Source of the DNA: Pseudomarimonas salicorniae
GTDB lineage: Bacteria; Pseudomonadota; Gammaproteobacteria; Xanthomonadales; Xanthomonadaceae
Assembly: GCF_023156535.1 (NCBI RefSeq)
Contig: NZ_JALNMH010000007.1
Coordinates: forward strand, 207,351 to 271,350
Reading direction: 5' to 3'
Length of the DNA: 64,000 nt
The notes under the pieces were generated by a model that made no database searches, had not been told where the DNA came from, and saw nothing but the letters and a program-made list of their open reading frames with translations. Positions within the stretch are counted from its first letter, which is position 1. Each line of letters opens with the position of its first letter. The position numbers and the translations under genes are program-made. Below are positions 6,312 through 27,831 of the stretch, one piece after another.

Positions 6312-6314
6312 GGC

Positions 6315-9201: not shown

Positions 9202-9285
9202 CTGATTACTCCTGGTTGCCACGCACGGCGAGCCGCTACCGGACCGCGCCTCGCGGGCGGGCCGGACCGCCGCCGGCAGGCCGCG

Positions 9286-9325: not shown

Positions 9326-9343
9326 GTTCCCCCGCCCTCCTGC

Positions 9344-10042
9344 ATGCCCGTCTCGCCCGACTATCTTGCCGATTACCGGACTCTCGACTGCGCGCCGGGC
9401 TGCACGGTGGCCGAGCTGGAAAGGGCCTGGCGACACGCACTGAGCCGCCACCATCCGGACCGCGCCGAGCCCGGCCGGCATTCCGAAGCCGCCCTGCGCA
9501 CCCAGGCCCTCAACACCGCGTACCGCCGACTGCGAAGTTTCGCCGATCAGCACGGCCGGCTGCCTGGCAGCGCGGGCCCGGCCGCCGTGAAGGTCGAGGC
9601 CAGACCGCAGCCCGGAGCACGCCCCGCCGAAGCGGTACCCGAGGCCCCGGCCGCGCGAAGTCCGCGACGAAGCTGGCTGGCCGTCACCGCCGTGTGCCTG
9701 GTGCTCGGGGCCTCCTGGCTGCTGCAGCCCGGGCCGGAGCTCGCCAAACGCTCCGTGGAGACCAGCACCGGCCCAGCCCCCACGACGGCCGCGGCCCTGG
9801 TTGCGGGCGCGCCCCTCGAACTCGACAGCAGCGCCTCGGAAGTACGAGCGCGAATCGGACGACCACCGCTGCGCCGGGTGACCGGGTTCGACAGCGAGGT
9901 CTGGGAGTACGGACCCTCGATGGTCGCGCTGCGCGACGACCGGGTGGTCGACTGGTACAACTCGCCGCTGCGCCCACTCCCCTTCCCCTCCGAGCGACCG
10001 GAGAATGCCGGCGCCATCAACGAGCCCCTTTCCCGAAGATGA
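9344..10042 (+). CDS. Membrane-tethered J-domain protein with C-terminal BamE/SmpA-like module
   Basis: Protein of 232 residues. An N-terminal J-domain (about residues 8-68) holds the HPD tripeptide (37-39) needed to stimulate Hsp70. It is followed by a Pro/Ala linker, a single membrane helix (about 110-127) and a C-terminal module (about 156-210: SASEVRARIGRPPLRRV, then EVWEYGPSMVAL and DRVVDWYN) that looks like the SmpA/OmlA/BamE fold. The ATG at 9344 is preferred to the GTG at 9311, because the GTG lies inside the CRP-type operator and neither has a good ribosome site. It diverges from the EPS operon and its 3' end overlaps the convergent sugar-transferase gene by 26 nt. Function unknown; possibly recruits DnaK to the membrane. 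Confidence 0.65.
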   Translation: MPVSPDYLADYRTLDCAPGCTVAELERAWRHALSRHHPDRAEPGRHSEAALRTQALNTAYRRLRSFADQHGRLPGSAGPAAVKVEARPQPGARPAEAVPEAPAARSPRRSWLAVTAVCLVLGASWLLQPGPELAKRSVETSTGPAPTTAAALVAGAPLELDSSASEVRARIGRPPLRRVTGFDSEVWEYGPSMVALRDDRVVDWYNSPLRPLPFPSERPENAGAINEPLSRR

Positions 10043-11423
10043 CCACTTCGCAGGTCTGCAGCAGGATCATCAGGTCGAAGACCAGGCTGTGGTTCTTCAC
10101 GTAATAGAGGTCGTAGCTGAGCTTCTCGCGCGCATCCTCGACCGAGGCGCCGTACGCGTAGCGGATCTGCGCCCAGCCGGTGATTCCCGGCTTGACCGCC
10201 TCCCGCAGTGAGAAATAGGGGATCTTCTCCGCCAGCTCGCGGACGAACTCCGGGCGCTCGGGCCGGGGCCCGACGAAACTCATCGAACCCTCGAGCACGT
10301 TCCAGACCTGAGGGATCTCGTCGATGCGAAGCTTGCGGATCACCTTGCCGACCCGGGTGACCCGGTCGTCGTCGCTGCTCGCCCAGCGCGCCTTGCCGTC
10401 CGCCTCGGCATCGGTGCGCATGCTGCGGAACTTCAGCACGTTGAAGGTCCGCCCGGCGAGGCCGACCCGCTGCTGGCGGTAAAGGATCGGCGCCCGCGGG
10501 CCGCTTTCCAGCACGATGGCCAGCGCAGTCAGGAGCATCAGGGGCGAGGCGAGCAGGAGCAGCAGGCTGGCCATGATCAGGTCGAAACCGCGCTTCGTTG
10601 CGGCCCGCGTCGAGCCGGCGTCGAAGCCTTCGGCGAAGACGACCCAGGAAGGCCGGACCAGCGTCAGGTTGACGCGGCCCGACTCGTTCTCGAAGAACTG
10701 CGCCATGTCGGTGATCTCGACCCCGCGCAGGCGGCATTGCATCAGCGCCTCGAGCGGCAGCGCACCGCGCTGCTCATCCGGTGCGGTGACGATCTCGTCG
10801 ATATCCAGGTCTTCGACGATGTCGACCAGCGAACGGCCGTTCTCGATCCACTGCGCCTCCTCGACTTCGGGCGTGTCGCCCTTCATCGGGATGTAGCCGA
10901 CGACCTGGAAGGTGCGCCGCTCGGCCCGTCTGCGCATGCGCGCGTCAAGCTGCTTGGCCCGGCGACCCGTGCCCAGGACCAGAACGCGACGCTTGATCAG
11001 CTCGGCACGGACCACGTGCAGCGCCAGCCAGCGCAGGCCGATCACCGCCAGCCAGCCCAGCGCAAGCGCCATGGCCATCACGCCGCGCCCGATGGTCTTG
11101 CCGGGGATGAGGTACTGCAGCATCACCAGCGCCAGGCCCCCGACGGCAAAGGCCACCAGGCCGCGCACCATGTAACCTCGCACCCCCTCGCGGGTGTACA
11201 TCACGTACATGCCGAGCGCGGCCATGGCCAGCACCTGGACCGAAGTAAAGACCAGCGCCCGCGGCATCACCGCGCCGAAGGCCTGGGCCGCCAGCGCGTC
11301 ATCGCCCCAGAAGCGGATCCAGACGGCGAGGTGGAAGGCGCCGAACAGCACGGCGAACTCGGCCAGGCCAAGCACCACCATCCACCGGCGCGCTGGATGG
11401 AGCGCATCCGAAAGAGAACGCAT
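10017..11423 (-). CDS. Undecaprenyl-phosphate sugar phosphotransferase (EPS initiating enzyme)
   Basis: Polyprenol-phosphate sugar-1-phosphate transferase of 468 residues, the enzyme that starts repeat-unit synthesis on undecaprenyl phosphate in the inner membrane. An N-terminal set of four to five helices (about 15-135) is followed by a nucleotide-binding-like region with VLVLGTGRRAKQLDARM. The C-terminal bacterial sugar transferase domain carries KRGFDLIMASLLLLL, LYRQQRVGLAGRTF, KFRSMRTDAE, LRIDEIPQVWNVL and the signature SFVGPRPERPEF. It resembles the EpsB/PEP-CTERM-associated family (TIGR03013-like). Transcribed leftward on its own from the 11.4-11.8 kb gap; its 3' end overlaps the J-domain gene. 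Confidence 0.9.
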   Translation of the reverse strand: MRSLSDALHPARRWMVVLGLAEFAVLFGAFHLAVWIRFWGDDALAAQAFGAVMPRALVFTSVQVLAMAALGMYVMYTREGVRGYMVRGLVAFAVGGLALVMLQYLIPGKTIGRGVMAMALALGWLAVIGLRWLALHVVRAELIKRRVLVLGTGRRAKQLDARMRRRAERRTFQVVGYIPMKGDTPEVEEAQWIENGRSLVDIVEDLDIDEIVTAPDEQRGALPLEALMQCRLRGVEITDMAQFFENESGRVNLTLVRPSWVVFAEGFDAGSTRAATKRGFDLIMASLLLLLASPLMLLTALAIVLESGPRAPILYRQQRVGLAGRTFNVLKFRSMRTDAEADGKARWASSDDDRVTRVGKVIRKLRIDEIPQVWNVLEGSMSFVGPRPERPEFVRELAEKIPYFSLREAVKPGITGWAQIRYAYGASVEDAREKLSYDLYYVKNHSLVFDLMILLQTCEVVIFGKGAR

Positions 11424-11804: not shown

Positions 11805-13097
<1,293 letters not shown>

Positions 13098-13125
13098 ACC
13101 ATTGACTCCCTCACGACGAGATCCC

Positions 13126-14133
13126 ATGCGCATCCTGGTCACCGGCGCCGCCGGCTTCATCGGCTCCACCCTCGGCCACCGTCTGCTCGATGACGGCCAC
13201 GAGGTCCTGGGCTATGACAATCTCAACGACTACTACGATCCCAGCCTCAAGCAGGCGCGTCTGGATCGTCTGACGCCGCGCGAGGGATTCCGCTTCGTCA
13301 AGGCCTCGCTCGAGGACAACCGGGCGATGCAGGCGGCCTTTGCCGACTTCCGCCCGCAGCGGGTGGTCAACCTCGCCGCCCAGGCAGGCGTGCGCTATTC
13401 GCTGGAGAACCCGCGCGCCTACATCGATGCCAACATCGTCGGCTTCCTGAACATCCTCGAGGCCTGCCGCCACGGCGAGGTGGAACACCTGGTCTATGCC
13501 TCATCGAGCTCGGTCTACGGCGCGAACCGCAAGCTGCCCTTCGCGGTCGAGGACAGCGTTGATCATCCGGTGAGCCTGTACGCCGCCAGCAAGAAGTCGA
13601 ACGAGCTGATGGCGCACACCTACAGCCACCTGTTCGGCCTGCCGACTACCGGCCTGCGCTTCTTCACCGTCTACGGCCCCTGGGGCCGGCCGGACATGGC
13701 GCTGTTCCTGTTCACGCGCAGGATCCTGGCCGGCGAGCCGATCGACGTCTTCAACTTCGGCAAGCACACGCGCGATTTCACCTATATCGATGACATCGTC
13801 GAGGGCGTCGCGCGAACCCTGTACAACACGCCGGCTCCGGATCCCGATTTCGATCCAATGAACCCGACCCCGGCCAGCAGCCGCGCGCCCTATCGGGTCT
13901 ACAACATCGGCAACCACACGCCGGTGCAGCTCTCGCGCTACATCGAGCTGATCGAGGAAGCGGTCGGCAGGAAAGCCGAGAAGCGCCTGCTGCCGCTGCA
14001 GCCGGGCGACGTGCCCGACACCGAGGCCGATGTCGCCGCCCTGGTGCGCGACACCGGCTACTCGCCGGAGACACCGGTGGACGTCGGCGTGAAGCGTTTT
14101 GTCGAGTGGTACCGGGACTACTACGGAGTCTGA
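13126..14133 (+). CDS. NAD-dependent UDP-uronate epimerase
   Basis: Extended short-chain dehydrogenase/epimerase of 335 residues. The start is set at the ATG giving [14 protein letters not shown], the NAD-binding GxxGxxG at the exact N-terminus; an upstream TTG would add eight residues. The catalytic motifs are SSSSVYGAN and YAASKKSNE (Tyr-x3-Lys). The segment [16 protein letters not shown] is characteristic of UDP-glucuronate 4-epimerases of capsule loci (CapI/LspL type). It probably converts the uronic acid made by the preceding dehydrogenase into its C4 epimer before incorporation in the polymer. The stop is 3 nt before the megasynthase start, so the two are in one transcript. Confidence 0.88.
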
Positions 14134-14136: not shown

Positions 14137-17100
14137 ATGACCGGGAACAGGGGAGAGGGGACGGTGCAGGCGGGCCTTGAGGCCACGACCGAAACCATCG
14201 GCGCGATCTGGCGCGACCTGCTCTCCATGCCCGAGCTGGACGCCCGGGCCAACCTGTTCGAGGCCGGCGCGCACTCCCTGCTGGTGCCGCAGTTCCTGTC
14301 CCGGGCGCGCGAGGCCGGGCTCGACGGGCTGGCCGTCGCCGACGTTTATGACGCACCCAGCGTGTTGGGCCTGGCGCGCCGGCTGCACGCCCAGCCGGCG
14401 GCGGGCGCGCCGCGCAGCAGCGCGCGCAGCCGGCCGACCGAGGGCATCGCCATCGTCGGCATGTCGGCGCGCTGCGCCGGTGCCGAGAACCTCGATGCGC
14501 TGTGGGAAAACCTGCTCGCCGGGGTCGAATCGCTGTCGCGCTTCTCCCCCGACGAGGTCGACCCGGACGTGCCCGAACGGCTGCGCAACAGCCCGCACTT
14601 CGTGGCCGCGCGGGGGGTGCTGCGCGATGTCGAGGGCTTCGACGCGGAGTTCTTCGGCATCTCGCCCCGCGAGGCGGTGCTGCTCGATCCGCAGCAGCGC
14701 ATGCTGCTCGAGCTCAGCTGGCATGCGCTGGAGCATGCCGGCATCGACCCCGCCCGGCATCCGCGGATCGGCGTCTACGCCGGCACCGCCAACAACCAGT
14801 ACGCGCCGCTGCTGCAGCGCCACGCGCCGCAGCTGATTCGCGCCAGCGGCGACTTCACCGCCATGCTGGGCGCCGAGAAGGACTTCGTCGCCACCCGCAT
14901 CGCCCATCGGCTGGACCTCAAGGGCCCGGCCGTCACCATCCTCACCGCCTGTTCCACCGGGCTCGTGGTGGTCGTCCAGGCCTGCGAGGCGCTGGCCGCC
15001 GGCGCCTGCGACGCGGCCCTGGCCGGCGCTTCCACCGTACTGCTGCCGCAGGCCGGCGGCTATCTGCACGTCGAGGGCGGCATGGAGTCGGCCGACGGTC
15101 GCTGCCGGCCGTTCGATGCCGAGGCCTCGGGCACGGTGTTCTCGAACGGCGGCGCGGTCGTCGTGCTCAAGCGCCTGGAAGACGCGCTGGCCGACGGCGA
15201 CACGATCTACGCGGTGATCCGCGGCACCGGGCTCAACAACGACGGCGGCGGCAAGGCCAGCTTCACCGCACCCAGCGTCAGCGGCCAGGCCGCGGCGATC
15301 CGCATGGCCCTCGACGCGGCGGGCGTCCCGGCGCGCGATGTGGGCTATATCGAAGCCCACGGAACGGCCACCGCGCTCGGCGACCCGATCGAGATCAGCG
15401 GCCTGTGCAGCGCCTTTGCTCCCGACACCGATGAGCGCGGCTTCTGCTGGCTGGGCTCGGTCAAGGGCAACATCGGGCACACCTGGGCCGCGGCCGGAAT
15501 GTTCGGCCTGATCAAGGCCGCGCTCGCCCTGCACCACGGGGTCATTCCGGCCAGCCTGCACTTCCGTCGCGCCAATCCGCAGATCGATTTCGGGGCCACG
15601 CCGTTCAAGGTCTGTGCCGGCAACCAGCCCTGGCCGCGTGGCGATCGCCCGCGCTATGCCGGGATCAGCTCCTTTGGCGTCGGCGGCACCAATGCCCATG
15701 TGCTGCTCGGCGAGGCGCCGGTCGCGACCTCGACCGGCGTCCACGAAGACGGCCCCCAGGTGCTGGCGCTCAGCGCACGCAGCGAATCGGCCGCCCTGGC
15801 CCTGGCCGGTCAGTTGGCGGACCGCCTCGAGCGGGACCCCTCCGGTTCGCTTCCAGAATTGGCCTACGCCCTGCTCCGTGGCCGCCCCGAACAGCGCTGG
15901 CGCCTTGCAGTGGCGGCGGAGACGGCGGCCGACGCAGCCGCCGCCCTGCGCGGCGCCCGGCACGCCGTCGAGGCCCTTCCCGAGGCGCGGGTGGTGTTCC
16001 TTTTTCCCGGCCAGGGTTCGCAGCAGGCGGGCATGGCGGCGGCGGCCTACGATGCCCTGCCCGGATTCGCCCGGGCCCTGGACCAGGCGCTCGACGCGGT
16101 CGCCCCGCACCTCGATGTCGACCTGCGCAGCCTGCTGCTGGAGGACCGCCCCGGCCATGCCGAGCGACTCGAGGAGACCCGGCATGCGCAGCCGGCCCTG
16201 TTCTGCATCGAGTGGGCCTTTGCCAGCTGGCTCGGCCAGCTCGGCCTGCGTCCGGCGGCCCTGATCGGCCACAGCATCGGCGAGCTGAGCGCGGCCTGCG
16301 TGGCCGGTGTGCTCACGCTTGAGGAGGCCGCCCGACTGGTCTGCGCCCGCGGTGCGGCGATGTGGTCGCAGCCGAGGGGAGCCATGCTCGCCGCGCGGGC
16401 CAGTGCGGAGGTGCTGCGTCCGCTGCTCGGAGCAGAGATCGAGATCGCCGGGCTCAACGCACCGGAACTGACCGTGCTGGCCGGGCCGGGCGCGGCCATC
16501 GACACCCTGGCAGGCCAGCTGGAGGCCGCCGGCATCCAGTCGACCCGCCTGCGCGTCTCGCACGGCTTCCACAGCGAGGCCATGGCCGGTGCCATGCCGA
16601 AGGTCGAGTCGGTAGCAGCCGGCCTTGCCGCCCGGGCGCCAAGGCTGCCGCTTTATTCCTGCATCGACGGCGCCCGCTGGCCGGACCAGGCCCCTGCGCC
16701 CGACTACTGGGCACGCCAGCTGCGCGCCCCGGTGCACTTCTCGGCGGCGCTGGCCAAGGAGGCGTCGATCCCCGGGACGCTGTTCGTCGAGGTCGGCCCG
16801 GGCCAGGCATTGAGCGCCCTGGCCCGCCAGCACCGCGCTGCGGACGGCAGTGCGCTGCGGGTGATCGCGCTGCAGCCGCCCGCCGGGCGCCCCGCCCACG
16901 CCTGCAGTGCCCTGCAGGGTCTGGCCCAGCTCTGGGCGCAGGGCGCAGCGGTGGTCTGGCCGCAGCCCGGTGGCCGGCGGCGCGTGCCCCTGCCGCTGTA
17001 CCCCTTTGCCCGCACCCGCCACTGGTTCGAACGCGGCGAGGGCAGCATCGAACATCAGGTCGCGGCTGATACCGCCCCCCAACGCCCCTCCCTTCCGCGT

Positions 17101-20100
17101 GAGGAGACCCCCGTGGCTTCCCGACTTCCCGCCCTCCGCGCCGAGCTGATCCAGGTGTTCGCCGACGCCTGCGGACTCTCGCCCGCCGAACTGCGCTGCG
17201 ACCAGGCCCTGGTCGAGCAGGGCCTCGATTCGCTCTCCGCCACCCAGGCGAGCCTCGAGATCGAACAGCGCCTGGGCGCGAAGCTGCGGTTTCGCCGACT
17301 GCTCGAGGACCTCGATACGGTCGACAAACTGGCCGGGTTCTTCGACGCAGAGCTGCCCGCCGACCGCTTTGCGCCGGCGCCGACGACTGCGGCTTCCGTG
17401 GAGCACCCCGCTCAGACGGCGACGACAGCGGGGCTGCCTGCCCTTCCCGCGCTTCCGGCGGCAGCCGATGGCACGGTGCAGGCCCTGGTCCAGCAGCAGC
17501 TGGCGCTGATGCAGCAGCAGCTGGCTCTGCTCGCCGGACACCCGCTGACCGCGGCCACGCCCGCCGGGCCGGACCCGGCTTCGGCCCCTGCCGCAGCCGC
17601 GTCCTCGCCGCAGGCAGCGCCCGGCGCAGCCTCCGGTGACGAGCCGGCCAACCTGATCAGCAAGCCCTTCGGCGCCTCGGCGCGGATCACGCTGTCCGCG
17701 CAGTCCGAGCTCAACGACGCCCAGCGTCGCTGGGTCGATGACTTCACCGCCCGTTACCTCGAACGCTTCGGCGCCTCCCGCGAGTTCTCCCAGCGCCACC
17801 GCGCGCTGATGGCCGATCCGCGCGTGGTGACCGGATTCAATCCGCAGTGGAAGGATCTGGTCTTCCCGATCGTCGCGGACCGCTCGGAGGGGGCGCGGCT
17901 CTGGGACATCCAGGGCAACGAGTTCATCGACCTGCTGTCCTGTTTTGGCGCCAACCTGCTCGGCTACAAGCCCAAGGCGATCACCGAGGCGATGCATGCC
18001 CAGCTTGACCGCGGCATCGAGGTCGGGCCGCAGCACCCGCTGGCCGCCGAAGTCTCGGCCCTGCTCAGCGAGTTCTCCGGACATCCGCGGGTCGGCTTCT
18101 GCAATACCGGCTCGGAGGCGGTGATGGGCGCGATGCGCATCGCGCGCACGGTGACCGGGCGCAAGACCATTGCAATCTTCACCAACAGTTACCACGGCAT
18201 CTTCGACGAGGTGCTCGTTCGCGGCACCCGCCAGCTGCGTTCGCTGGCCGCCGCGCCGGGCATTCTCGCCAGCTCGGTGGAGAACGTGCTGGTGCTCGAC
18301 TATGCCAGCGAGGACGCCCTGCGCGTGCTCCGCGAGCGCGGCCGCGAGCTGGCGGCGGTGATGATCGAGCCGGTGCAGAACAAGTACCCGACGCTGCAGC
18401 CGCGCGACTTCGTCCGCGCCCTGCGCGAGATCTGCGACGAGGCCGGCTGCGCGCTGATCTTCGACGAGGTGGTGACCGGCTTCCGCCTCGCCGCGGGCGG
18501 CGCGCAGGAGTTCTACGGCGTGCGCGCCGACATCTGCAGCTACGGCAAGATCATCGGTGGCGGCCTGCCGATGGCGGCCATCACCGGCAGCGCGAAGTGG
18601 CTGGACGCGCTCGACGGCGGCCACTGGCAGTACGGCGACGCCAGCTATCCCGAGGCCGGCGTGACCTACTTCGCCGGCACCTACGTGCGCCATCCGCTGG
18701 CCCTGGCCGCGGCCAAGGCCACGCTGGGATACATCAAGCAGCGCGGCCCGGCTTTGTTCGATGAGCTGAACGCACGCACCCAGGACCTGGTGGATCGGCT
18801 CAACGCCGGCTTCCTCGCCCGCCAGGCGCCGGTCAAGGCGGTGCATTGCGCCTCGCTGTGGCGCCTGCACTGGGACGAGGACCAGCGCTACGTCAGCCTG
18901 TTCTACTACCTGGCCCGCTACCACGGACTGCATCTGTACGAGCAGTTCGGCCATTTCGTCACCGAACCGATGGATGCAGCGGTCATCGACCGCATCGTCG
19001 AGGTCTTCCTCGGCGCGGTCGACGAGCTGATGGAGCTGGGCCTGCTTACCCGTCGCGACGGCCTGCCGCCACCGGACGGCGGGAAGCCCACGGGCAGCGA
19101 CCGCGAGGGCGCGCTCTCGCCGGGCCAGGGCGAGCGCTGGCTGGCCGCCAACTTCGACAGCCAGGCCCTGCGCGCACTCAACGAAACGCTCTGCCTGCGC
19201 CTCGACGGGCCGCTCGACGTCGAGGCCCTGCGCGGCGCCCTGGGCGAGCTGCAGCGCCGCCATGCCGTGTTCCGGCTGCGCATCGAGGCCGATCGGCCGC
19301 TGCAGCGCGAAGTGCCGGGCAGCGAGCGGGCGCTGGACTGGAAGGATCTTTCCCAGGCAGCCGACCCCGATGCCGCGCTCGATGCCTTCGCCCGCGAGGC
19401 CGGCCTGCAGACCGTCGAGCTGGGCGAGGGCCCGATGATCCGCATGACCCTGCTGCGCCTCGACCCGCAGCGCCACGCCCTGCACCTGGTCTACAGCCAT
19501 CTTGCCGTCGATGGCTGGGCGATCAGCGTGTTCCTCGAGGAGCTCGCCCTGCTCTATCGCGAGCGCACCGGCGGCGGCGCGTCCGGACTGCCGACGCCGG
19601 GCCTGCCCTGGGAGTTCGCCCGCCAGGAGCAGGCGCGCATGGCGGGGCCGGATGGCCAGGCCGACGCGGCTTTCTGGAAGCGGCTGCTGTCCGATCCGCC
19701 GGCAGCGCTGTCGCTGGGCGACCTGCCCCCGTCCTCATCACGCAGTTTCACCGCAGACACCGCCTACCTGCGCATCGAGGGCGCCCGTTTCGCCGCGCTG
19801 AAGCAGCTGGCCAGGGATCGCCGGGTGACGCTGTTCCAGCTGCTGCTCGGCACGGTGGCGACCCTGGTCGGCCGCCTCGGCCGGCAGTTGGAGTTCCTGC
19901 TCAGCATTCCCTATGCCAGTCAGGGTCTCGGCCGGCATCCGGCGCTGATGTCCGACGGCGTGCTCGATCTGCCCCTGCGCGTTGCGCTGGCCGACGACCG
20001 CGACGTGCTCGGCAACCTGCCGGCAATCCGCAGCGTGCTGATGGACGCGCTGGAACATCCGCTGATGACCCAGGGCCTCGCCGCCCGCCTGCTGGCCCTG

Positions 20101-23100
20101 CCCAGCCGCGGTGACCGGCCACCGCTGACCGGCGTGTACTTCAATCTGAACCCGCGCGTGGTGCTCGACGGCTTCGCGCCGCTGCGGGCCAGCATGCGCG
20201 AGGGCCGCAAGCCGGGCCTGCTCAGCGAGCTGATGTTCAACTTCTACGAGGAGGACGAGGCACTGGCGCTGGATCTGCACCACAGCACCGAGTTCTTCAG
20301 CCCCGGGCGCATCCGCGAGATCCTCGAGGCGCTGGACGCGGACATCGGCGCCCTGACCGGCGGCGCGCCCGCCTCTCCGGCAGCTACGTCGCCGACCGCC
20401 TCCGACGCCTCGACACCGAGCGCTTTCGGCCAGGCCATGCCCGCCCGCGATGCCGCACTGGGCGAGACCCCGCGCATCGAGCGCTGGATCTCGGCCCAGG
20501 CACAGCGCAGTGCCGACCGTATCGCGATCAGCGCCGGCGAGGAGCACTGGACCTACGGCCAGCTCGAAGCGCAGGCCAACCGTATCGCGCAGACGCTGCA
20601 GGCGCGCGGTGTGCGGCCGGGTGACTGGGTCGGTCTGTGCCTGCCCCGCGGGCCGCAGCTGATCGCCGCCCTGCTCGGCATCCTCAAGTGTGGGGCCGCC
20701 TACGTGCCGCTGGATCCGGCGTTTCCGCTGCAGCGGCTGCGCGACATGATCGAGGATGCCGGCCTGCGCCTGCTGCTGAGCGACAGCGAGAACGCCGCGC
20801 GACTTGAGGTCGGCGCGCTGGAGACCCTGCGGATCGACCTCGACGCCGCCGAGATCCGCGCCGCGGCCGGCAATGCTCCGCGCGTCGAGATCCGCGGCGA
20901 CGCCCCGGCCTACGTCATCTATACCTCCGGCTCCACCGGAAAACCCAAGGGCGTGGTGGTCCTGCAGCGCGGCGTGGCCAACTTCCTGCGCAGCATGGCG
21001 CACACGCCGGGCATGCGCGGCGACGATCGCATCCTTGCGGTCACCACGCTCAGTTTCGACATCGCCGTGCTCGAGCTGCTCCTGCCGCTCTGCCTGGGCG
21101 CGCGGATCGTGCTCGCCCAGCGCACCGACGCGATCGACGGCCAGGCGCTGCGCCAGCTGATCGAACGGCATCGGGTCAGCATCATGCAGGCCACGCCGAG
21201 CACCTGGCACCTGCTGCTGGAGGCCGGCTTCCGGGCACCGCAGGGCTTCCGCGCCCTGTGTGGCGGTGAGGCACTGAGCCCCGCCCTCGCCAGGCGCCTG
21301 CTCGACTGCGGCGTGGACCAGCTGTGGAACATGTACGGGCCGACCGAGACCACGGTCTGGTCGACCGTGTCGCAGGTCACCGACGCCCAGCACATCAGCG
21401 TTGGCCGACCCATCGACGATACCGTCGTGCGCCTGCTCGACGACTCGGGCCAAGAATGCGGCGTCGGCGAGCCGGGCGAGATCTGCATCGGCGGCGCCGG
21501 CGTGGCCCAGGGCTATCACGCCCGCCCCGAGCTGACCGCCGAGCGCTTCATCGCCGATCCCTTCGACGCCAGCCCCGGCGCGCGGCTCTACCGCACCGGC
21601 GACCTCGGCGCCTGGAACGAGGACGGCACGATCCGGCACATGGGCCGGCTCGACCACCAGGTCAAGCTGCGCGGTTACCGGATCGAACTGGGCGAGATCG
21701 AGGCGCGCCTGGAGCAGGTCCCCGGCGTCGCCCGCGCGGCGATGCGGGTGGAGAGCTTCGGCGAGATGGACGACCGGCTGGTCGCCTATGCGGTCCCGGC
21801 CCCCGGGCAGGCCCTGCCCGCGCTGGCCGCGCTGCGCCGCGAGCTTGGCCGCCATCTCCCCGACTACATGCTGCCCCAGGTGCTGCGCGAGCTGGCCGAG
21901 ATGCCGCTGCTGCCGAACGGCAAGATCGATCGCAAGTCGCTGGGCGCCGAGCTCGGCAGCGCGGCCTCGGCAGGGGCTCCGGCGAGCGCTCCGGTGGCGG
22001 CCACCCCGCAGCCTGCAGACCGGACAGCGAACGACGCGAGCCTGGTCATTGCTGCCGAGATGGGCCGCCTGCTCGGCCAGGAGGGCTTCTCGCCGAGCGC
22101 GAATTTCTTCGAGCAGGGCGGCCACTCGCTGTTGGCCGCCGAGCTGGCAGCGGCGATCAAGTCGAAGCTGGGCGTGCGACCCAGCCTTCGCACGCTGTTC
22201 GAGTCGCCGACGCCGCTGGCGCTGGCTGCGGCGCTGGGCGCCACCCGGAGCACCACGGACCCTGCGCCGCCCGGCGCAGCCGAGCCGCGCCGCCGCGAGG
22301 ATCGCCGACAGGCGCCGCTTTCCGTGCAGCAGCTTCGCGCCTGGTTCCTCGAACAGACCGCCCCGCACGGCAGCGTCAACCTGCTGCCCTCTGCCCACCG
22401 GCTGATCGGGGTCCTCGACGTCGATGCGTTCCGCCGCGCCCTGCGCGCCCTGGTCAGCCGCCAGTCGGTCCTGCGCAGCGTGTTCCTGCCCTCGAACGAC
22501 GGCGTGGTGATGGAGGTCCGCGAGGCCTTCGATCCGTCGCTGCCGATGACGGATCTGTCCGGCCTAGCCCGCGAGGTCGCCGAGTCGCGGGTGCGCGACA
22601 TCGTCGCCGGCCTGCAGGCCGAGCCCCTCGACCTCGGCCGCGGCCCGCCGTTCCGCGCCGCCCTGCTGCGCATGGGCGACGAGGAGCACGTGTTCGTCTT
22701 CGTCGTCCACCACCTGGTCTGGGATGGCTGGTCGTTCGACCTGCTGTATCGCGACATGGCCGAGCTCTACCAGGCCGAACTCGGCGGCGGCGAGGGCCCG
22801 GCGCCGCTGGAGCTGGAATACGGCGATTACAGCGCCTGGCAGCGCGAGCTGCTGGCCTCGGACGCGCTGCAGCCACAGATCGCGCACTGGCGGCAGCGCC
22901 TTCTTCCCGCGCCGGCGCCGCTGGCCCTGCCGCTTGACCATCCGCGCCCGCCGGAGATGAGCGGTCGCGGCGCCTCGGTCCGCCTGGTGCTCCCGCCCGA
23001 ACAGCTCGAGCGCCTGCACCGCCTCGCCCGGACCCGCGGCACCACCGTGTTCGTGATCCTGCTCACCGCCTATGTGGCCATGCTGCAGCGCCTGACCGGG

Positions 23101-24012
23101 CAGCGCGACCTGATTGTCGGGACGCCGGTCCGCGGCCGCGAGCACGCCGCCTTGCTGCCGGTCATGGGCTTCTTCGTCAACGCGCTGCCGCTGCGCTTCG
23201 ACGCGCCCCTTTCCGAGCTCGAGCCCGCCGTCGAGGCAGTCAAGGCGGTGGTCAGCGACGCGCTTGGTCACCCCGACGTGCCGGTCGAGGCCCTGGTCCG
23301 CGAACTCAAGCTGCCGCGTGACAGCAGCCGCCCGGCCCTGTTCCAGACCCTGTTCTCCTTCCAGGATGTGCGCGAACGGCCGCGCCGCTGGGGGCCCCTG
23401 CGCCACGAACGGGTCGGCGTTCCGGTCGGTGGCTCCAGCCACGAGCTGAGCCTGTGGTGCGTCGAAACCGCGGTCGGGCTGGAGACCATATTCACCTTTG
23501 CCGCCGACCTGTTCGCGCCCGACACCATCCGCGGCTGGGCCATGGCCTATCAGCGCCTGCTCGGGGCCATCGACCAGGAAGCCCTGTCCGGCCTGCTGGC
23601 TGCGCTGTCGGACAGCAGCCCGGATCGATCATCCGGCGCGGTCCCTGCTCCTTCCGCGGCCGCGCCCACGCGGGTCACGGAATCCGCCCCGCAGGGCGCA
23701 GCGCGCGAGCTGCTTCGGGCAATCTGGAAGGAGCTGCTCGCTGTCGATTCGGTATCGGACGACGACAACTTCTTCGAGCTGGGCGGCCATTCCCTGCTGG
23801 CCCTGACCATGGTCGGACGGGTCGAGGTGGCCTGCGGCAAGCGGCTGTCCCTGCTTCGCGTGGGCGACAGCAGCCTCGGCGCACTGGCCGCCGAGCTGGA
23901 GGCCGGGGAGCCGCGCCGCGAGCCGGAGCCGGCCCTGGCCACGTCATCCGTGGAAGCGACCGCCCGCCCCGCCGGCCGCAGGTGGATGCGCAGATTGCTC
24001 GGCCGCGAATGA
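14137..24012 (+). CDS. Hybrid PKS-NRPS megasynthase with internal aminotransferase
   Basis: Assembly-line enzyme of 3291 residues. Domains in order: carrier 1 (Ser47 in GAHSLL); ketosynthase about 101-525 (Cys272 in TACSTGL, His408 in EAHGTAT, His448 in KGNIGHT); acyltransferase about 618-965 (Ser713 in GHSIGE, HGFHS, suggesting malonyl-CoA); carrier 2 (Ser1032 in GLDSLSATQ); Gln-rich linker about 1113-1135; class III aminotransferase about 1195-1635 (FDEVVTGFR, PLP Lys1471 in YGKIIGGGLP); condensation domain 1 (SHLAVDG, His1788); adenylation domain about 2110-2600 (YTSGSTGKPKG, YGPTETT, YRTGDL, Lys2596); carrier 3 (Ser2664); condensation domain 2 (HHLVWDG, His2859); carrier 4 (Ser3219). There is no ketoreductase, acyl-ligase loading domain or thioesterase. 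The order parallels the aminotransferase modules of mycosubtilin/iturin (MycA) and microcystin (McyE) synthases. Expected chemistry: extend a carrier-bound acyl group by malonate, transaminate the beta-keto to a beta-amino group, then couple it to an amino acid, probably glycine. An ACGGAG ribosome site lies 8 nt before the ATG. It ends in an ATGA overlap with a hydrolase gene. Confidence 0.95.
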   Translation: MTGNRGEGTVQAGLEATTETIGAIWRDLLSMPELDARANLFEAGAHSLLVPQFLSRAREAGLDGLAVADVYDAPSVLGLARRLHAQPAAGAPRSSARSRPTEGIAIVGMSARCAGAENLDALWENLLAGVESLSRFSPDEVDPDVPERLRNSPHFVAARGVLRDVEGFDAEFFGISPREAVLLDPQQRMLLELSWHALEHAGIDPARHPRIGVYAGTANNQYAPLLQRHAPQLIRASGDFTAMLGAEKDFVATRIAHRLDLKGPAVTILTACSTGLVVVVQACEALAAGACDAALAGASTVLLPQAGGYLHVEGGMESADGRCRPFDAEASGTVFSNGGAVVVLKRLEDALADGDTIYAVIRGTGLNNDGGGKASFTAPSVSGQAAAIRMALDAAGVPARDVGYIEAHGTATALGDPIEISGLCSAFAPDTDERGFCWLGSVKGNIGHTWAAAGMFGLIKAALALHHGVIPASLHFRRANPQIDFGATPFKVCAGNQPWPRGDRPRYAGISSFGVGGTNAHVLLGEAPVATSTGVHEDGPQVLALSARSESAALALAGQLADRLERDPSGSLPELAYALLRGRPEQRWRLAVAAETAADAAAALRGARHAVEALPEARVVFLFPGQGSQQAGMAAAAYDALPGFARALDQALDAVAPHLDVDLRSLLLEDRPGHAERLEETRHAQPALFCIEWAFASWLGQLGLRPAALIGHSIGELSAACVAGVLTLEEAARLVCARGAAMWSQPRGAMLAARASAEVLRPLLGAEIEIAGLNAPELTVLAGPGAAIDTLAGQLEAAGIQSTRLRVSHGFHSEAMAGAMPKVESVAAGLAARAPRLPLYSCIDGARWPDQAPAPDYWARQLRAPVHFSAALAKEASIPGTLFVEVGPGQALSALARQHRAADGSALRVIALQPPAGRPAHACSALQGLAQLWAQGAAVVWPQPGGRRRVPLPLYPFARTRHWFERGEGSIEHQVAADTAPQRPSLPREETPVASRLPALRAELIQVFADACGLSPAELRCDQALVEQGLDSLSATQASLEIEQRLGAKLRFRRLLEDLDTVDKLAGFFDAELPADRFAPAPTTAASVEHPAQTATTAGLPALPALPAAADGTVQALVQQQLALMQQQLALLAGHPLTAATPAGPDPASAPAAAASSPQAAPGAASGDEPANLISKPFGASARITLSAQSELNDAQRRWVDDFTARYLERFGASREFSQRHRALMADPRVVTGFNPQWKDLVFPIVADRSEGARLWDIQGNEFIDLLSCFGANLLGYKPKAITEAMHAQLDRGIEVGPQHPLAAEVSALLSEFSGHPRVGFCNTGSEAVMGAMRIARTVTGRKTIAIFTNSYHGIFDEVLVRGTRQLRSLAAAPGILASSVENVLVLDYASEDALRVLRERGRELAAVMIEPVQNKYPTLQPRDFVRALREICDEAGCALIFDEVVTGFRLAAGGAQEFYGVRADICSYGKIIGGGLPMAAITGSAKWLDALDGGHWQYGDASYPEAGVTYFAGTYVRHPLALAAAKATLGYIKQRGPALFDELNARTQDLVDRLNAGFLARQAPVKAVHCASLWRLHWDEDQRYVSLFYYLARYHGLHLYEQFGHFVTEPMDAAVIDRIVEVFLGAVDELMELGLLTRRDGLPPPDGGKPTGSDREGALSPGQGERWLAANFDSQALRALNETLCLRLDGPLDVEALRGALGELQRRHAVFRLRIEADRPLQREVPGSERALDWKDLSQAADPDAALDAFAREAGLQTVELGEGPMIRMTLLRLDPQRHALHLVYSHLAVDGWAISVFLEELALLYRERTGGGASGLPTPGLPWEFARQEQARMAGPDGQADAAFWKRLLSDPPAALSLGDLPPSSSRSFTADTAYLRIEGARFAALKQLARDRRVTLFQLLLGTVATLVGRLGRQLEFLLSIPYASQGLGRHPALMSDGVLDLPLRVALADDRDVLGNLPAIRSVLMDALEHPLMTQGLAARLLALPSRGDRPPLTGVYFNLNPRVVLDGFAPLRASMREGRKPGLLSELMFNFYEEDEALALDLHHSTEFFSPGRIREILEALDADIGALTGGAPASPAATSPTASDASTPSAFGQAMPARDAALGETPRIERWISAQAQRSADRIAISAGEEHWTYGQLEAQANRIAQTLQARGVRPGDWVGLCLPRGPQLIAALLGILKCGAAYVPLDPAFPLQRLRDMIEDAGLRLLLSDSENAARLEVGALETLRIDLDAAEIRAAAGNAPRVEIRGDAPAYVIYTSGSTGKPKGVVVLQRGVANFLRSMAHTPGMRGDDRILAVTTLSFDIAVLELLLPLCLGARIVLAQRTDAIDGQALRQLIERHRVSIMQATPSTWHLLLEAGFRAPQGFRALCGGEALSPALARRLLDCGVDQLWNMYGPTETTVWSTVSQVTDAQHISVGRPIDDTVVRLLDDSGQECGVGEPGEICIGGAGVAQGYHARPELTAERFIADPFDASPGARLYRTGDLGAWNEDGTIRHMGRLDHQVKLRGYRIELGEIEARLEQVPGVARAAMRVESFGEMDDRLVAYAVPAPGQALPALAALRRELGRHLPDYMLPQVLRELAEMPLLPNGKIDRKSLGAELGSAASAGAPASAPVAATPQPADRTANDASLVIAAEMGRLLGQEGFSPSANFFEQGGHSLLAAELAAAIKSKLGVRPSLRTLFESPTPLALAAALGATRSTTDPAPPGAAEPRRREDRRQAPLSVQQLRAWFLEQTAPHGSVNLLPSAHRLIGVLDVDAFRRALRALVSRQSVLRSVFLPSNDGVVMEVREAFDPSLPMTDLSGLAREVAESRVRDIVAGLQAEPLDLGRGPPFRAALLRMGDEEHVFVFVVHHLVWDGWSFDLLYRDMAELYQAELGGGEGPAPLELEYGDYSAWQRELLASDALQPQIAHWRQRLLPAPAPLALPLDHPRPPEMSGRGASVRLVLPPEQLERLHRLARTRGTTVFVILLTAYVAMLQRLTGQRDLIVGTPVRGREHAALLPVMGFFVNALPLRFDAPLSELEPAVEAVKAVVSDALGHPDVPVEALVRELKLPRDSSRPALFQTLFSFQDVRERPRRWGPLRHERVGVPVGGSSHELSLWCVETAVGLETIFTFAADLFAPDTIRGWAMAYQRLLGAIDQEALSGLLAALSDSSPDRSSGAVPAPSAAAPTRVTESAPQGAARELLRAIWKELLAVDSVSDDDNFFELGGHSLLALTMVGRVEVACGKRLSLLRVGDSSLGALAAELEAGEPRREPEPALATSSVEATARPAGRRWMRRLLGRE

Positions 24013-24737
24013 GCAGCCCGGTGCTCGAACCGGTCCGGATCCCGGTGGGTCCTGCGTGGATCCACGCGCTTCTGCGTCGGCCGCCGACGCCGCGCGCCGT
24101 GCTGCTGGTGGCGCCGCCGTTCTTCCACGAATGGCAGCGCAGCTACCGGCTGTTCGCCCAGCTCTGCGAGGCGCTCGTCGAACACGGGCTGGCCAGCCTG
24201 CGCCTCGACTACCGTGGCTGCGGCGACTCCTGGGGTGACGACGCCGACTTCCTCCCCAGCCGGGCCCTGGCCGATGCCGAGTGCGCCCTGGGCTGGCTGC
24301 GCGAACGCTTCGAAGCCCTGCCCTGCGCCCTGCTGGGCATTCGCGGCGGCGCGCTGATTGCCGAACCGGTAGCCCGGGCCGCCGGCTTGCCCTGGGCGGC
24401 CTGGCAGCCCGTTCCCAGCGGACGTGTGCATCTCGACGAGCTGTGGGCGCGCGAGCGCCGCGAGCGCAGCAGCCGCGGCCGCTATCCCTGGCTGCTCGAA
24501 GACGTGGCCGAAGATCCCGGCGTGCTGATGGGGCAGCGCGTGCATCCGGAGTTCGGCATCGAGCTGTCCACCCTGCGCGCGGAGACGCCGCCCGACCTGC
24601 TGCTCGACGAATCAACCGACGACGGGCTCGACCCTGCCCTGTTCGGCTGGGTCCAGCAGATCTCCATCGCCGGCCAGCCGCCGCTGCCGGCGGTCCGCGC
24701 CGCGGCCCGGCGCCTTGGCGAACGCTTCGCGCCATGA
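24009..24737 (+). CDS. Alpha/beta-hydrolase-fold protein, atypical nucleophile (EPS/exosortase hydrolase 2-like)
   Basis: Protein of 242 residues translationally coupled to the megasynthase (ATGA). Hydrolase-fold marks are VLLVAPPFFHEWQRSYR (oxyanion region, 31-47), LRLDYRGCGDSWG (64-76) and the nucleophile elbow LLGIRGGALIAE, where Arg112 occupies the position of the Ser/Cys/Asp nucleophile. No convincing catalytic His is visible near the C-terminus. From memory, the exosortase-A-associated hydrolase 2 family (TIGR03101) has a similar Gly-x-Arg elbow, which would fit this locus. Possible roles are a non-catalytic partner of the next hydrolase, or help in releasing or transferring the megasynthase product. 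A conventional type II thioesterase is unlikely. Confidence 0.7.
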   Translation: MSSPVLEPVRIPVGPAWIHALLRRPPTPRAVLLVAPPFFHEWQRSYRLFAQLCEALVEHGLASLRLDYRGCGDSWGDDADFLPSRALADAECALGWLRERFEALPCALLGIRGGALIAEPVARAAGLPWAAWQPVPSGRVHLDELWARERRERSSRGRYPWLLEDVAEDPGVLMGQRVHPEFGIELSTLRAETPPDLLLDESTDDGLDPALFGWVQQISIAGQPPLPAVRAAARRLGERFAP

Positions 24738-25558
24738 TCCGCGAGCGAAGCCTCCTGTTCGAGGACGGCCGACTGGCCATCCTGACCGAAGCGCAGGGCC
24801 CTGCCCGGCTGGTCCTCGTGCTGTCCAATGCCGGCTTCATCCACCGCATGGGACCGTTCCGGCTGCACGTCGCCCTGGCCCGGCAGCTTGCATCGCTGGG
24901 CGTCTGCACGGTGCGCGTCGACCTGCCGGGAATCGGCGATTCGCTGCGCGCCGCCAGCCGTCCCCAGCTCAGCCTGGCCGGGGAACTGCTCGATCGCCTG
25001 GCGCAGGAAACCGGCTGCGAGCGCTTCATCGTCGGCGGCATCTGCAGCGCGGCCGACTTCGGCTGGTCGCTGGCTCTCGCCGACCCGCGCGTGGCCGGCG
25101 TCCTGCTGCTCGACGCACTCGCCCGCCGCGAACTGCCGGCCTACCGGCTGGGCCAGTTCCAGCTGCACTGGCGTCGCGGCCCGCGGGCCTGGCTCGACAC
25201 GCTGCGCAGGCGACTGCGGCCGCGCCCTGCGCAGGAGGCGGGCGCAGGGCCCCGCGCCGCGCCGCCCACCGATGCCGAGCTGCGTGACTGGCCGGCGCCC
25301 GGCAGCGAGTCCGCCCAGCTCGCGAAGCTGGTCGAACGCGGCACCGAACTGCTCTTCGTCTACACCGGCGGGGCGCTGACCTACTTCAGCCATCCGCGAC
25401 AGTTCCACACGGGCTACGGCCAGGCTACCCGCTCGCCGCGGGTCCGCTTCCGCTTCTGGCCCGATTGCGACCACCTGTTCTACCGCCCCGAGCACCGCGA
25501 GCGACTGCTCGGTGAAGTGTCATGCTGGATCCAGCAAAGATTCGGAGAAACGCCATGA
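24734..25558 (+). CDS. Alpha/beta hydrolase with Cys nucleophile elbow (EPS/exosortase hydrolase 1-like)
   Basis: Protein of 274 residues; the ATG overlaps the stop of the preceding hydrolase (ATGA). It shows an oxyanion loop LSNAGFIHRMG (30-40), VDLPGIGDS (62-70), a nucleophile elbow GGICSAAD with Cys104, and a probable catalytic His247 in DCDHLFY. A Cys-His hydrolase or acyltransferase directly behind an assembly line lacking a thioesterase is a good candidate for product release or transfer to an acceptor such as a sugar; this is inference. It resembles the exosortase-A-associated hydrolase 1 family (TIGR03100-like). Two such hydrolases side by side are a known signature of PEP-CTERM polysaccharide loci. 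Confidence 0.74.
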   Translation: MIRERSLLFEDGRLAILTEAQGPARLVLVLSNAGFIHRMGPFRLHVALARQLASLGVCTVRVDLPGIGDSLRAASRPQLSLAGELLDRLAQETGCERFIVGGICSAADFGWSLALADPRVAGVLLLDALARRELPAYRLGQFQLHWRRGPRAWLDTLRRRLRPRPAQEAGAGPRAAPPTDAELRDWPAPGSESAQLAKLVERGTELLFVYTGGALTYFSHPRQFHTGYGQATRSPRVRFRFWPDCDHLFYRPEHRERLLGEVSCWIQQRFGETP

Positions 25559-26461: not shown

Positions 26462-27466
26462 ATGAGCACACAGTGCAAAGCCCCCATCCTGGTCACCGGC
26501 GGCGCCGGCTACATCGGCAGCCACGTGGCGCTGCAGCTGCGGGAGGCCGGAGAGCGGGTCATCGTGCTGGACAACCTCAGCACCGGCTTCCGCGAGGCGG
26601 TCCTCGATGCCGAGCTGGTGGTCGGCGAGGCAGGCGACTTCGCCCTGGTCCACGGCCTGCTGGAGGCGCACGGCATCGACACAGTGCTGCACTTCGCCGC
26701 GCGCACCATCGTCCCCGAATCGGTGGCCGACCCGCTGCGCTACTACGGCAACAACACCTGCGCCACGCGCAACCTGCTGGCGGCCTGCGCCCGCGCCGGG
26801 GTGCAGCACTTCGTGTTCTCGTCGACGGCGGCGGTCTACGGCGTCCCCGAGGGCGGCCGCTGCCGCGAGGACTCGCCGAACGCGCCGATCAACCCCTATG
26901 GCACGTCCAAGCTGATGAGCGAGTGGATGCTGCGCGACCTCGCCGCCGCCAGCGAGCTGCGCTACGTCGCCCTTCGCTATTTCAACGTCGCCGGCTGTGA
27001 CCGCAAGGGCCGCATCGGCCAGAGCACCGAGAAGGCGACCCTGCTGGTCAAGGTGGCCGCCGAGGCGGCGCTCGGGCGCCGTCCCCGGCTGGCGATCTTC
27101 GGCACCGACTACCCGACGCCGGACGGCACCGGCGTGCGCGACTACATCCACGTCGAGGACCTCGCCCGCGCCCATCTCGACGCCCTGCGTCATCTGCGCG
27201 AGGGGGGCACTTCGCAGACGCTGAACGTGGGCTACGGCCACGGCTACAGCGTGCGCGAGGTGATCGACACCATGACCCGCGTCCACGGCGCACCGATCCC
27301 GACCGTCGAAGAGCCACGTCGAGCGGGCGATCCGCCGGTGCTGATCGCCGAGTGCGAGCGGGTCAAACAGGTGCTTGGCTGGACGCCCGAGCTCGACGAT
27401 CTCGAGATGATCTGCCGCACTTCGCTGGACTGGGAGCGCCGACTCACCGCCTCTCGCGGTCACTGA
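26462..27466 (+). CDS. galE: UDP-glucose 4-epimerase
   Basis: Interconverts UDP-glucose and UDP-galactose (or the N-acetyl forms) in the cytoplasm; 334 residues. The N-terminal NAD motif is VTGGAGYIGSHV, with DNLSTGFREAV following. The catalytic Ser/Tyr/Lys residues are in FSSTAAVYG and NPYGTSKLMSE, with the sugar-binding region ALRYFNVAG and GTDYPTPDGTGVRDYIH, a GalE hallmark. The start at 26462 leaves a 40-nt gap after the cupin gene. Part of the rightward EPS operon, where it would supply UDP-galactose or UDP-GalNAc. Confidence 0.93.
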   Translation: MSTQCKAPILVTGGAGYIGSHVALQLREAGERVIVLDNLSTGFREAVLDAELVVGEAGDFALVHGLLEAHGIDTVLHFAARTIVPESVADPLRYYGNNTCATRNLLAACARAGVQHFVFSSTAAVYGVPEGGRCREDSPNAPINPYGTSKLMSEWMLRDLAAASELRYVALRYFNVAGCDRKGRIGQSTEKATLLVKVAAEAALGRRPRLAIFGTDYPTPDGTGVRDYIHVEDLARAHLDALRHLREGGTSQTLNVGYGHGYSVREVIDTMTRVHGAPIPTVEEPRRAGDPPVLIAECERVKQVLGWTPELDDLEMICRTSLDWERRLTASRGH

Positions 27467-27468
27467 AC

Positions 27469-27831
27469 ATGCCATTCCCTCCCGACCAGCGCTCTGCGCT
27501 GGCGCGCGCCCTTCTATTCAGTGGGCTCGGCGTCGTTGCCCTGCTGCTGCCGCTGCCCCCGATGCCGGAATGGCAGAGCCTGATCAACCTGGCTCACGTG
27601 CCCCTGCTCGCCGTGCTCGCCTGGCTCTGGCTCGATGCCCTGGCCAGCCTCGGGGTGCCGCGGCTGCGCGCGATGATCGGCGTTCTGTTGCTCGGGGCGG
27701 CGGCCGGCGGCGCGATGGAACTGATGCAGTGGTTCATCCCCGGTCGCTGGCCCGATCCGAACGACTTCCTCCTCAATCTCGTCGGCCTGCTGCTGGGCCT
27801 CTTCGCGCACTGGCTGTACAGAAGAGACTGA
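27469..27831 (+). CDS. VanZ-like small membrane protein
   Basis: Integral membrane protein of 120 residues with about four hydrophobic helices (near 12-30, 38-55, 65-85 and 97-115) and the VanZ-family features LINLAHVPLLAVL and ELMQWFIPGRWPDPNDFLLN, where Glu and the PxDxxxN-like stretch are conserved. Starts 2 nt after galE and is the last gene of the rightward operon. VanZ-like proteins recur in polysaccharide and PEP-CTERM loci. The biochemical role is unknown. Confidence 0.78.
   Translation: MPFPPDQRSALARALLFSGLGVVALLLPLPPMPEWQSLINLAHVPLLAVLAWLWLDALASLGVPRLRAMIGVLLLGAAAGGAMELMQWFIPGRWPDPNDFLLNLVGLLLGLFAHWLYRRD

Follow-up and report, generated by a model that had tools for sequence, protein, structure and literature searches.

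Here we describe a hybrid polyketide synthase and non-ribosomal peptide synthetase (PKS-NRPS) that is encoded within an exopolysaccharide (EPS) locus of Pseudomarimonas salicorniae, in a stretch of 64,000 nucleotides (contig NZ_JALNMH010000007.1, positions 207,351 to 271,350; the window), and is followed directly by two alpha/beta-hydrolase-fold genes related to "hydrolase 2" and "hydrolase 1" of XrtA/PEP-CTERM-type EPS loci. The assembly line has the order T-KS-AT-T-AMT-C-A-T-C-T (T, carrier; KS, ketosynthase; AT, acyltransferase; AMT, aminotransferase; C, condensation; A, adenylation) and is predicted to build a beta-amino-acyl-glycine, which the pair, one protein of Cys type and the other without a nucleophile, would off-load in trans, possibly transferring it to a polysaccharide precursor. 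We hold this account to be probable on balance, though far from assured; it builds on the domains, the gene order, invariant residues, synteny and the replacement of the pair by a fused thioesterase within the same genus. The enzyme kinds are known ones, and it is their arrangement that is new, an AMT-containing PKS-NRPS with a separate Cys/dead hydrolase pair as its likely release step.

The megasynthase gene (14137-24012, plus strand) is a single open frame of 3,291 codons encoding 3,291 amino acids, in which Pfam profiles and motif reading together give the domain order. Pfam recognizes KS (residues 102-570), AT (620-911), class-III aminotransferase (1242-1557) and AMP-binding with its C-terminal part (2120-2596), as well as two condensation and four carrier stretches, with the main domains at E values of 2.5e-40 to 1.4e-113, well above chance. 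An in-line class-III aminotransferase with its pyridoxal phosphate (PLP) lysine follows KS-AT-T, which is the arrangement of AMT hybrid PKS-NRPSs, and the motifs of the AT are of what we take to be the malonyl type. An earlier, sequence-only reading had proposed a T-KS-AT-T-AMT-C-A-T line with a beta-aminating module, no loading ligase and no thioesterase. That domain string is correct for the domains it lists, although the terminal C-T (the second C and fourth T) is missing from it, and the beta-aminating module is borne out by the aminotransferase of the mycosubtilin synthase MycA as the best solved relative of the AMT. The protein indeed has neither an N-terminal acyl ligase nor a loading A domain, its first domain being T1, and a genome search turned up no other full-length A domain of NRPS type. 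The absence of a thioesterase is true in cis, as the megasynthase contains no release domain and ends with T4 and a short tail, but not of the locus, where the separate alpha/beta-hydrolase-fold genes stand directly 3'. Opposite the megasynthase lies a 1,999-aa antisense open frame (13501-19500, minus strand), most likely a by-product of high G+C coding.

The window locus is clearly an EPS locus, in which the XrtA-type export, chain-length and phosphotransferase families TIGR03027, TIGR03007 and TIGR03013 all score above cut-off among the minus-strand genes at 709-11423. On the plus strand, the TviB-like gene (TIGR03026 376.5 bits, over its cut-off of 189.8) and the epimerase gene do lie directly upstream of the megasynthase, and galE and the VanZ-like gene downstream in the same direction, as had been proposed; galE, however, is not the next gene, since the two alpha/beta-hydrolase-fold genes and a Cupin_8 gene intervene (24009-24737, 24734-25558 and 25555-26421). 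This co-directional run is likely to be an operon. The gaps between the TviB-like and epimerase genes and between the epimerase and megasynthase genes are 4 and 3 bases, and 4-base ATGA overlaps join megasynthase to hydrolase 2 and hydrolase 2 to hydrolase 1, with a third between hydrolase 1 and the cupin if the latter starts at 25555 and not at 25522. In the database, the hydrolase 2 model (238 aa) begins four codons later, and that start would abolish the first overlap. The Cupin_8 protein is, to judge from its residues, a probable Fe(II)/2-oxoglutarate oxygenase.

Residues of the two "hydrolases" point to unequal roles within the pair. Gly102, Cys104 and His247 of hydrolase 1 are among the invariant columns, Cys104 and His247 being kept in 98/98 proteins (98 aligned of 109 found), and hydrolase 2 has Arg108 in all 40 of its proteins. 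Wider alignments, to which 15 hydrolase-1 and 21 hydrolase-2 locus frames and 11 standard XrtA sequences each were added, and in each of which the window protein is counted twice, keep the Cys and His of hydrolase 1 in 125/125 rows and place Arg or Gly, and in no case Ser or Cys, at the nucleophile position of hydrolase 2 in 73/73. At position 127 of hydrolase 1, 113 of the 114 rows from the megasynthase side have Asp, and 11/11 standard XrtA rows have Asn. In the structural models (pLDDT 91.8 and 92.3), Cys104 of hydrolase 1 sits between strand 97-103 and helix 105-116, and the nucleophile elbow of hydrolase 2 falls at Arg108, with strand 102-107 followed by helix 108-121. Because hydrolase 1 has an invariant Cys-His and hydrolase 2 lacks a nucleophile, the label "hydrolase" is doubtful for both proteins. 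The Cys-His of hydrolase 1, the missing nucleophile of hydrolase 2 and the gene order 2-1 recur in 11/11 standard sequences each, features that were derived in this analysis, not curated, from sequences of 17 stretches.

Of 2,524 candidates scored in a set of 5.8 billion proteins, 2,250 were matches, the best 120 of which were analysed. The AMT alignment, run against a single genome of each species, confirmed 141 stretches, of which the best 80 loci were kept. AMT identity is at least 64% in 50 of the 80, and seven of these are cut by contig ends, leaving 43 assessable family loci. Naive open reading frame picking chose some antisense frames in the G+C-rich loci, and the locus counts therefore rest on profile and tblastn matches. 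Hydrolase 2 and hydrolase 1 occur together within the locus in 32 of the 43; the profiles were trained partly on sequences of the loci counted, and tblastn with the window protein alone recovers the identical 32 loci with hydrolase 1. A cupin relative is present in 24/43 and the pair plus cupin in 16/43; the 22 loci of the Bacteroidetes outgroup all lack the pair. Seven Pseudoxanthomonas and Luteimonas loci (AMT 53-54% identical) have hydrolase 1 in 7/7 and hydrolase 2 in 6/7; in this branch the AMT frame stops early and further NRPS frames follow (L073, L080). In one Rhodanobacter genome the pair stands elsewhere in the same EPS locus, adjoining galE.

Three Hydrogenophaga loci (L023, L033 and L040) have a second hydrolase 1/hydrolase 2 pair in opposite orientation just past the first, and the second hydrolase 2 of L033 extends off the locus into L132. 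Aquimonas voraii, for which a hydrolase-1 relative (P0149) is recorded, has a hexapeptide-type acetyltransferase gene and a carrier-protein-like gene 3' of its megasynthase (L009:16250-17434).

The sister species Pseudomarimonas arenosa offers a natural replacement. Its megasynthase (P0051, L010) is 56% identical to the window protein over 99%, its AMT stretch is letter-for-letter the same as that of genome G002 of the window's genus, and its EPS locus is syntenic with the window through glycosyltransferases, deacetylase, kinase, chain-length, export, EpsB, TviB, epimerase, megasynthase and galE. Unlike the window protein, this megasynthase possesses a loading A domain, and a thioesterase (PF00975, GGSMG) is fused to its C-terminus; ~20 kb to the left and right of it revealed none of hydrolase 2, hydrolase 1 or cupin. 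A fused thioesterase thus replaces the hydrolase pair at the same locus within one genus. A hydrolase-2-like domain is fused to the megasynthase C-terminus in two other relatives (P0073 and P0078), and the proteins that lack any fused C-terminal domain tend to end in a basic amphipathic tail, found in 82/101 such relatives vs 2/13 with a fused domain (six of 120 proteins with unclear ends were excluded). The tail pattern was composed after the tails had been seen and is descriptive; its background is 488 of 6,000 random 26-mers and 11/70 of the stretches that follow internal carriers, and it also occurs at 25/109 hydrolase-1 and 5/40 hydrolase-2 C-termini. A narrower first expression matched 39/120, and a hydrophobic-moment score picked out 51/101 proteins without a fused domain vs 1/13 with one. 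Taken together, the thioesterase replacement, the hydrolase-2 fusions and the distribution of the tail are compatible with release in trans by proteins docked on the last carrier. In two further relatives (P0101 and P0109) the fused C-terminal domain contains the motif GLCAG, and a Cys nucleophile may therefore also occur in cis.

Standard XrtA loci, sampled as 17 stretches from 16 genomes, show what the pair follows where there is no megasynthase. In six stretches a frame of 81-88 aa directly precedes hydrolase 2 and matches the carrier family PF00550 over cut-off (6/6), and the neighbouring frames of ~410 aa match the decarboxylase TIGR03099 over cut-off in five of six tested; one genome (G304, L095:4535-6654) has hydrolases 2 and 1 in a single 618-aa frame, with an 88-aa carrier (PF00550). 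The sequence-only comparison with PEP-CTERM-type loci, where a ligase, carrier and decarboxylase often take the place of the megasynthase, stands up in that related hydrolase-2/hydrolase-1 pairs are found behind both the stand-alone carrier and the megasynthase, and it can be sharpened, as the two supply systems never co-occurred over cut-off in the genomes searched. The ligase TIGR03098 exceeds its cut-off in 43 of 369 class genomes and hydrolase 2 in 23, the ligase accompanying hydrolase 2 in 22 of these 23. No TIGR03098 match over cut-off was obtained in any of 25 megasynthase genomes searched (chosen from the 80 loci, five of them from the branch with AMT 53-54% identical), nor in the nine class genomes with an AMT match at E 1e-120, namely the window genome and eight others at 406-711 bits. 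The best match in the window genome, 237 of 592 bits, is the megasynthase A domain itself. The ligase set and the megasynthase look mutually exclusive in the sampled genomes. Because its pair is related to the one that follows the carrier at standard XrtA loci, the megasynthase seems to be a second way of feeding one kind of transfer step common to both. For the pair itself, the titles and abstract openings listed by literature searches on XrtA hydrolase 2 state no function for hydrolase 2 or 1, and the main text of the founding PEP-CTERM paper (PMC1569441) has no words beginning with ligase, hydrolase or decarboxylase.

Adenylation codes of the best 120 megasynthase relatives were read by hand, at what we take to be the PheA positions. 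The A domain after the AMT has DILQLG[ML][VI]WK in 109 of the 120 listed relatives, later A domains have DILQLG[ML]VWK in 35/42, and the loading A domain, present ahead of the KS in 110/120, has DVQ[FY][VI]AHVVK in 69/110, with 18 more lacking one position. The glycine activation proposed earlier is backed by the code of the window protein, one residue off the DILQLGMIWK given for Gly in PMC12283262; likewise, PMC9113097 reports DVQYVAHVVK/DVQYIAHVVK for Pro. From these codes the predicted unit of the relatives is a proline start, malonate extension, beta-amination, glycine and often a second glycine. The ten proteins counted without a loading A include the window protein, six relatives 66-67% identical to it, all of ~3.2 kaa, and P0061, which starts inside an A domain. 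No trans-acting loading A was found in the window genome, where the two leftover matches are partial and 29-32% identical, and the starter on T1 may be glycine from the single A domain or a group loaded in trans. Derivation of the loading A from the XrtA ligase TIGR03098 was considered and rejected, as standard ligases are about equally like the glycine A and the loading A.

Two observations concern the carriers. The loading A is cleanly gone from the window protein (14137-14391; whole genome G000 considered) though the T1 serine is kept, and a phosphopantetheinyl transferase match of 44.6 bits lies on the megasynthase's contig ~10 kb before the window (G000:C30:197580-197789, L150), with a second, stronger match on contig C2 of the window genome.

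In the mechanism that we propose, T1 would hold the starter (proline by code in relatives), KS-AT would add malonate and the AMT would convert the resulting 3-oxo group to a 3-amino group. C1-A-T3 would then append glycine, and C2-T4 one more unit, which would be either an amine or another glycine, loaded by the protein's single A domain. From the last carrier the chain would move to hydrolase 1 (Cys104-Asp127-His247), whose partner, hydrolase 2, would be catalytically dead. Hydroxylation of the unit is probably the task of the Cupin_8 protein.

Several observations weigh against this proposal. A tree of 76 rows splits megasynthase-side from standard hydrolase 1 with a branch of 2.14 and support of 100/100, both window hydrolases score far under the TIGR03100 and TIGR03101 cut-offs (Table 1), and Foldseek matches of both models are generic alpha/beta-hydrolases (esterases, lipases), so that the fold is uninformative on transfer vs hydrolysis. 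The pair was not found at the megasynthase gene in 11/43 family loci, and the same-family genome G025 has the tail, yet no pair within ~14 kb downstream. As regards the supply lines, 21/43 class genomes with an over-cut-off ligase have no over-cut-off hydrolase 2, and sub-cut-off ligase relatives occur in 17 of the 25 megasynthase genomes. The window protein also has no loading A, and no replacement for it was found. The substrates, the off-loading in trans and the polysaccharide as acceptor are deductions; and both the fused thioesterase of the sister species, which is compatible with free release as much as with transfer, and the scarcity of EPS markers near some relatives bear on the choice of acceptor.

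A close rival to polysaccharide attachment is free release, by which the product would be an ordinary secondary metabolite (a small beta-peptide or lactam) that hydrolase 1/2 hydrolyses or cyclises off for secretion, the EPS location reflecting shared regulation or chance; we regard it as a real possibility, although not the probable one. Type-I thioesterases (PF00975, GGSMG), a usual release route for free products, are fused in P0051 and P0075, and the family has a scattered distribution (3/60 relatives score above 850 bits, the window genome included). EPS context, scored in 17 contexts of 27 genomes placed, some shortened by contig ends, with a reach of ~30 kb and a marker set of window homologues plus one exosortase only, divides by order. 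We take four contexts to be Lysobacterales and thirteen Burkholderiales, a Rhodocyclaceae metagenome-assembled genome being counted with the latter. Markers lie close to the gene in 4/4 Lysobacterales contexts, which argues against a free metabolite, but in only 6/13 of the Burkholderiales, in two of which (Hydrogenophaga) an EpsB-type gene is the sole EPS marker matched; the remaining 7/13 have none. The earlier reading had named relatives in unrelated neighbourhoods as evidence against its idea, and the Burkholderiales contexts partly bear this out. With markers near 6/13 Burkholderiales contexts, the megasynthase-hydrolase cassette is more constant than its EPS neighbourhood. Polysaccharide attachment is nonetheless favoured because the locus is intact, gene for gene, in two species of one genus, and because standard XrtA EPS loci, which have no megasynthase, employ a related pair. 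Nor was a dedicated transporter seen among the genes scanned at 709-30222.

It is unlikely, in our judgement, that the terminal C-T instead couples a free diamine such as putrescine, so that the line would release its amide itself and the pair would do other work, for example proofreading. The best PDB match of the C-T stretch is a "special condensation domain" (8z0q), which we take to be that of glidonin; the C domain alone, however, scores higher with the Txo1 C domain, and HHLVWDG is intact in C2. C-T didomains do terminate some NRPSs that make peptides with C-terminal putrescine, according to PMC10587159. Against such a cap, some relatives have fused thioesterases after the last carrier, and since later A domains of relatives are mostly Gly-coded (the 35/42 above), the A-less C-T module is compatible with loading by the one Gly-coded A that remains.

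It is highly improbable that the unit serves as an amine-nucleophile acceptor onto which exosortase A attaches PEP-CTERM proteins: the pair does belong to exosortase-type loci and 10/11 Burkholderiales megasynthase genomes searched have exosortase matches above 200 bits, but none of the 14 Lysobacterales megasynthase genomes has a match above 200 bits or even above 40 bits, and the window genome has a single weak PF09721 match of 43.9 bits on another contig (G000:C5:43163-43597, L109) and none in or near its EPS locus. Protein sorting is therefore not needed; PF07589 (PEP-CTERM) had no match in the window genome, and the control gave no match either. Similar weak exosortase-family matches were seen in Aquimonas and Pseudomarimonas.

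Coordinates of the locus and of the megasynthase domains are collected in Table 1. Just past the VanZ-like gene lies a DUF885 family protein (458 bits; 27874-30222). Further to the right, the window has a 1,027-aa protein that ends in a GGDEF diguanylate cyclase domain and is a possible slime regulator (35661-38744), adjacent MlaD/MCE-like and ABC ATP-binding (MlaF-like) genes (43508-46011), and rmlA above cut-off (507.6 bits; 54767-55936), which suggests dTDP-rhamnose genes toward its right side.

Table 1. Megasynthase domains and surrounding EPS-locus genes, in window coordinates.
Feature	Coordinates	Strand	Basis or remark
PKS-NRPS megasynthase, T-KS-AT-T-AMT-C-A-T-C-T	14137..24012	+	3,291 aa; Pfam, motifs
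T1 carrier, GAHS serine retained, no loading A in front	14185..14391	+	edges approximate
KS, Cys and both His motifs present	14440..15846	+	PF00109/PF02801/PF16197, motifs
AT, motifs GHSIGE and SHGFHS	15994..16869	+	PF00698, motifs
AMT (class-III aminotransferase), PLP lysine in YGKIIGGG	17662..18963	+	PF00202; MycA AMT 364 bits
C1 condensation, SHLAVDG (second His and Asp kept)	19111..20406	+	PF00668, two stretches; edges approximate
A domain, hand-read code DILQLGMVWK, glycine-like	20494..21924	+	PF00501 313.6 bits
T3 carrier	22051..22236	+	PF00550 best stretch 2639-2700
C2 condensation, HHLVWDG intact	22306..23571	+	PF00668 best stretch 2724-3145; motif
T4 terminal carrier, no A domain of its own	23704..23892	+	Pfam, motifs; edges approximate
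C-terminal basic amphipathic tail (GRRWMRRLLGRE), proposed docking or membrane tail	23974..24009	+	tail pattern
Hydrolase-2-like protein, alpha/beta-hydrolase fold, Arg at nucleophile position	24009..24737	+	TIGR03101 59.1 bits (cut-off 202.75)
Hydrolase-1-like protein, Cys104/Asp127/His247, proposed acyltransferase or thioesterase	24734..25558	+	TIGR03100 40.4 bits (cut-off 168.45)
Cupin_8/JmjC-type protein, HxD...H residues	25555..26421	+	PF13621 111.1 bits; alternative in-frame ATG 25522
galE	26462..27466	+	TIGR01179 434 bits (cut-off 262)
VanZ-like protein, start codon uncertain	27463..27831	+	PF04892 39.6 bits
TviB-like UDP-N-acetylglucosamine 6-dehydrogenase, start of co-directional run	11805..13097	+	NF011729 586.9 bits (cut-off 592, just below)
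NAD-dependent sugar epimerase/dehydratase	13102..14133	+	PF01370 190.6 bits
EpsB-type polyprenyl glycosylphosphotransferase, XrtA/PEP-CTERM type	10017..11423	-	TIGR03013 568.9 bits (cut-off 393)
XrtA-type polysaccharide export protein	8578..9345	-	TIGR03027 203 bits (cut-off 180)
XrtA-type chain-length determinant	7016..8581	-	TIGR03007 372 bits (cut-off 279)
EPS-locus glycosyltransferases, deacetylase, outer-membrane protein, tyrosine kinase	709..7019	-	XrtA families below cut-off, or Pfam

Compared with known systems, the megasynthase shares the order KS-AT-T-AMT-C with MycA and microcystin-type AMT modules, and the MycA AMT is its nearest solved relative. Unlike these, it has no N-terminal ligase, and most of its relatives have a proline-coded loading A rather than a fatty-acyl ligase; the glycine-coded A, the A-less C-T end and the trans release pair are further differences. 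With XrtA/PEP-CTERM EPS loci the window shares over-cut-off export, chain-length and phosphotransferase genes and the order carrier, hydrolase 2, hydrolase 1, but it differs in that neither an exosortase match at or close to the locus nor TIGR03098 over cut-off was obtained, that a 10-kb assembly line stands in place of small supply genes, and that the hydrolases fall below cut-off. The P. arenosa megasynthase, of the window's own genus and at the same locus, differs by its loading A, its fused thioesterase and the lack of a pair or cupin found nearby. In Dlt D-alanylation of teichoic acids, a carrier-bound amino compound is moved onto an anionic surface polymer. The window system would be an analogue of Dlt, not a member, if decoration is true; unlike Dlt, it employs an assembly line instead of one ligase, and the scanned neighbouring genes include no membrane acyltransferase of DltB type.

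For the XrtA hydrolase pair, the analysis provides a residue-level prediction, a Cys transferase with a dead partner, and because a fused thioesterase naturally takes the place of the pair in another species of the genus, its role is directly testable. If decoration of the polysaccharide is true, a modular assembly line would make a peptide modification of an exopolysaccharide. More tentatively still, XrtA "hydrolases" 1 and 2 may not be hydrolases but together a carrier-to-polysaccharide acyltransferase (Cys enzyme plus dead partner) that receives its substrate from one of two unrelated sources, either the ligase/carrier/decarboxylase set or a PKS-NRPS making a cationic proline-derived beta-amino-acyl-glycine, and the outcome would be a peptide-decorated, charge-balanced slime comparable to the D-alanylated teichoic acids of Gram-positive bacteria.

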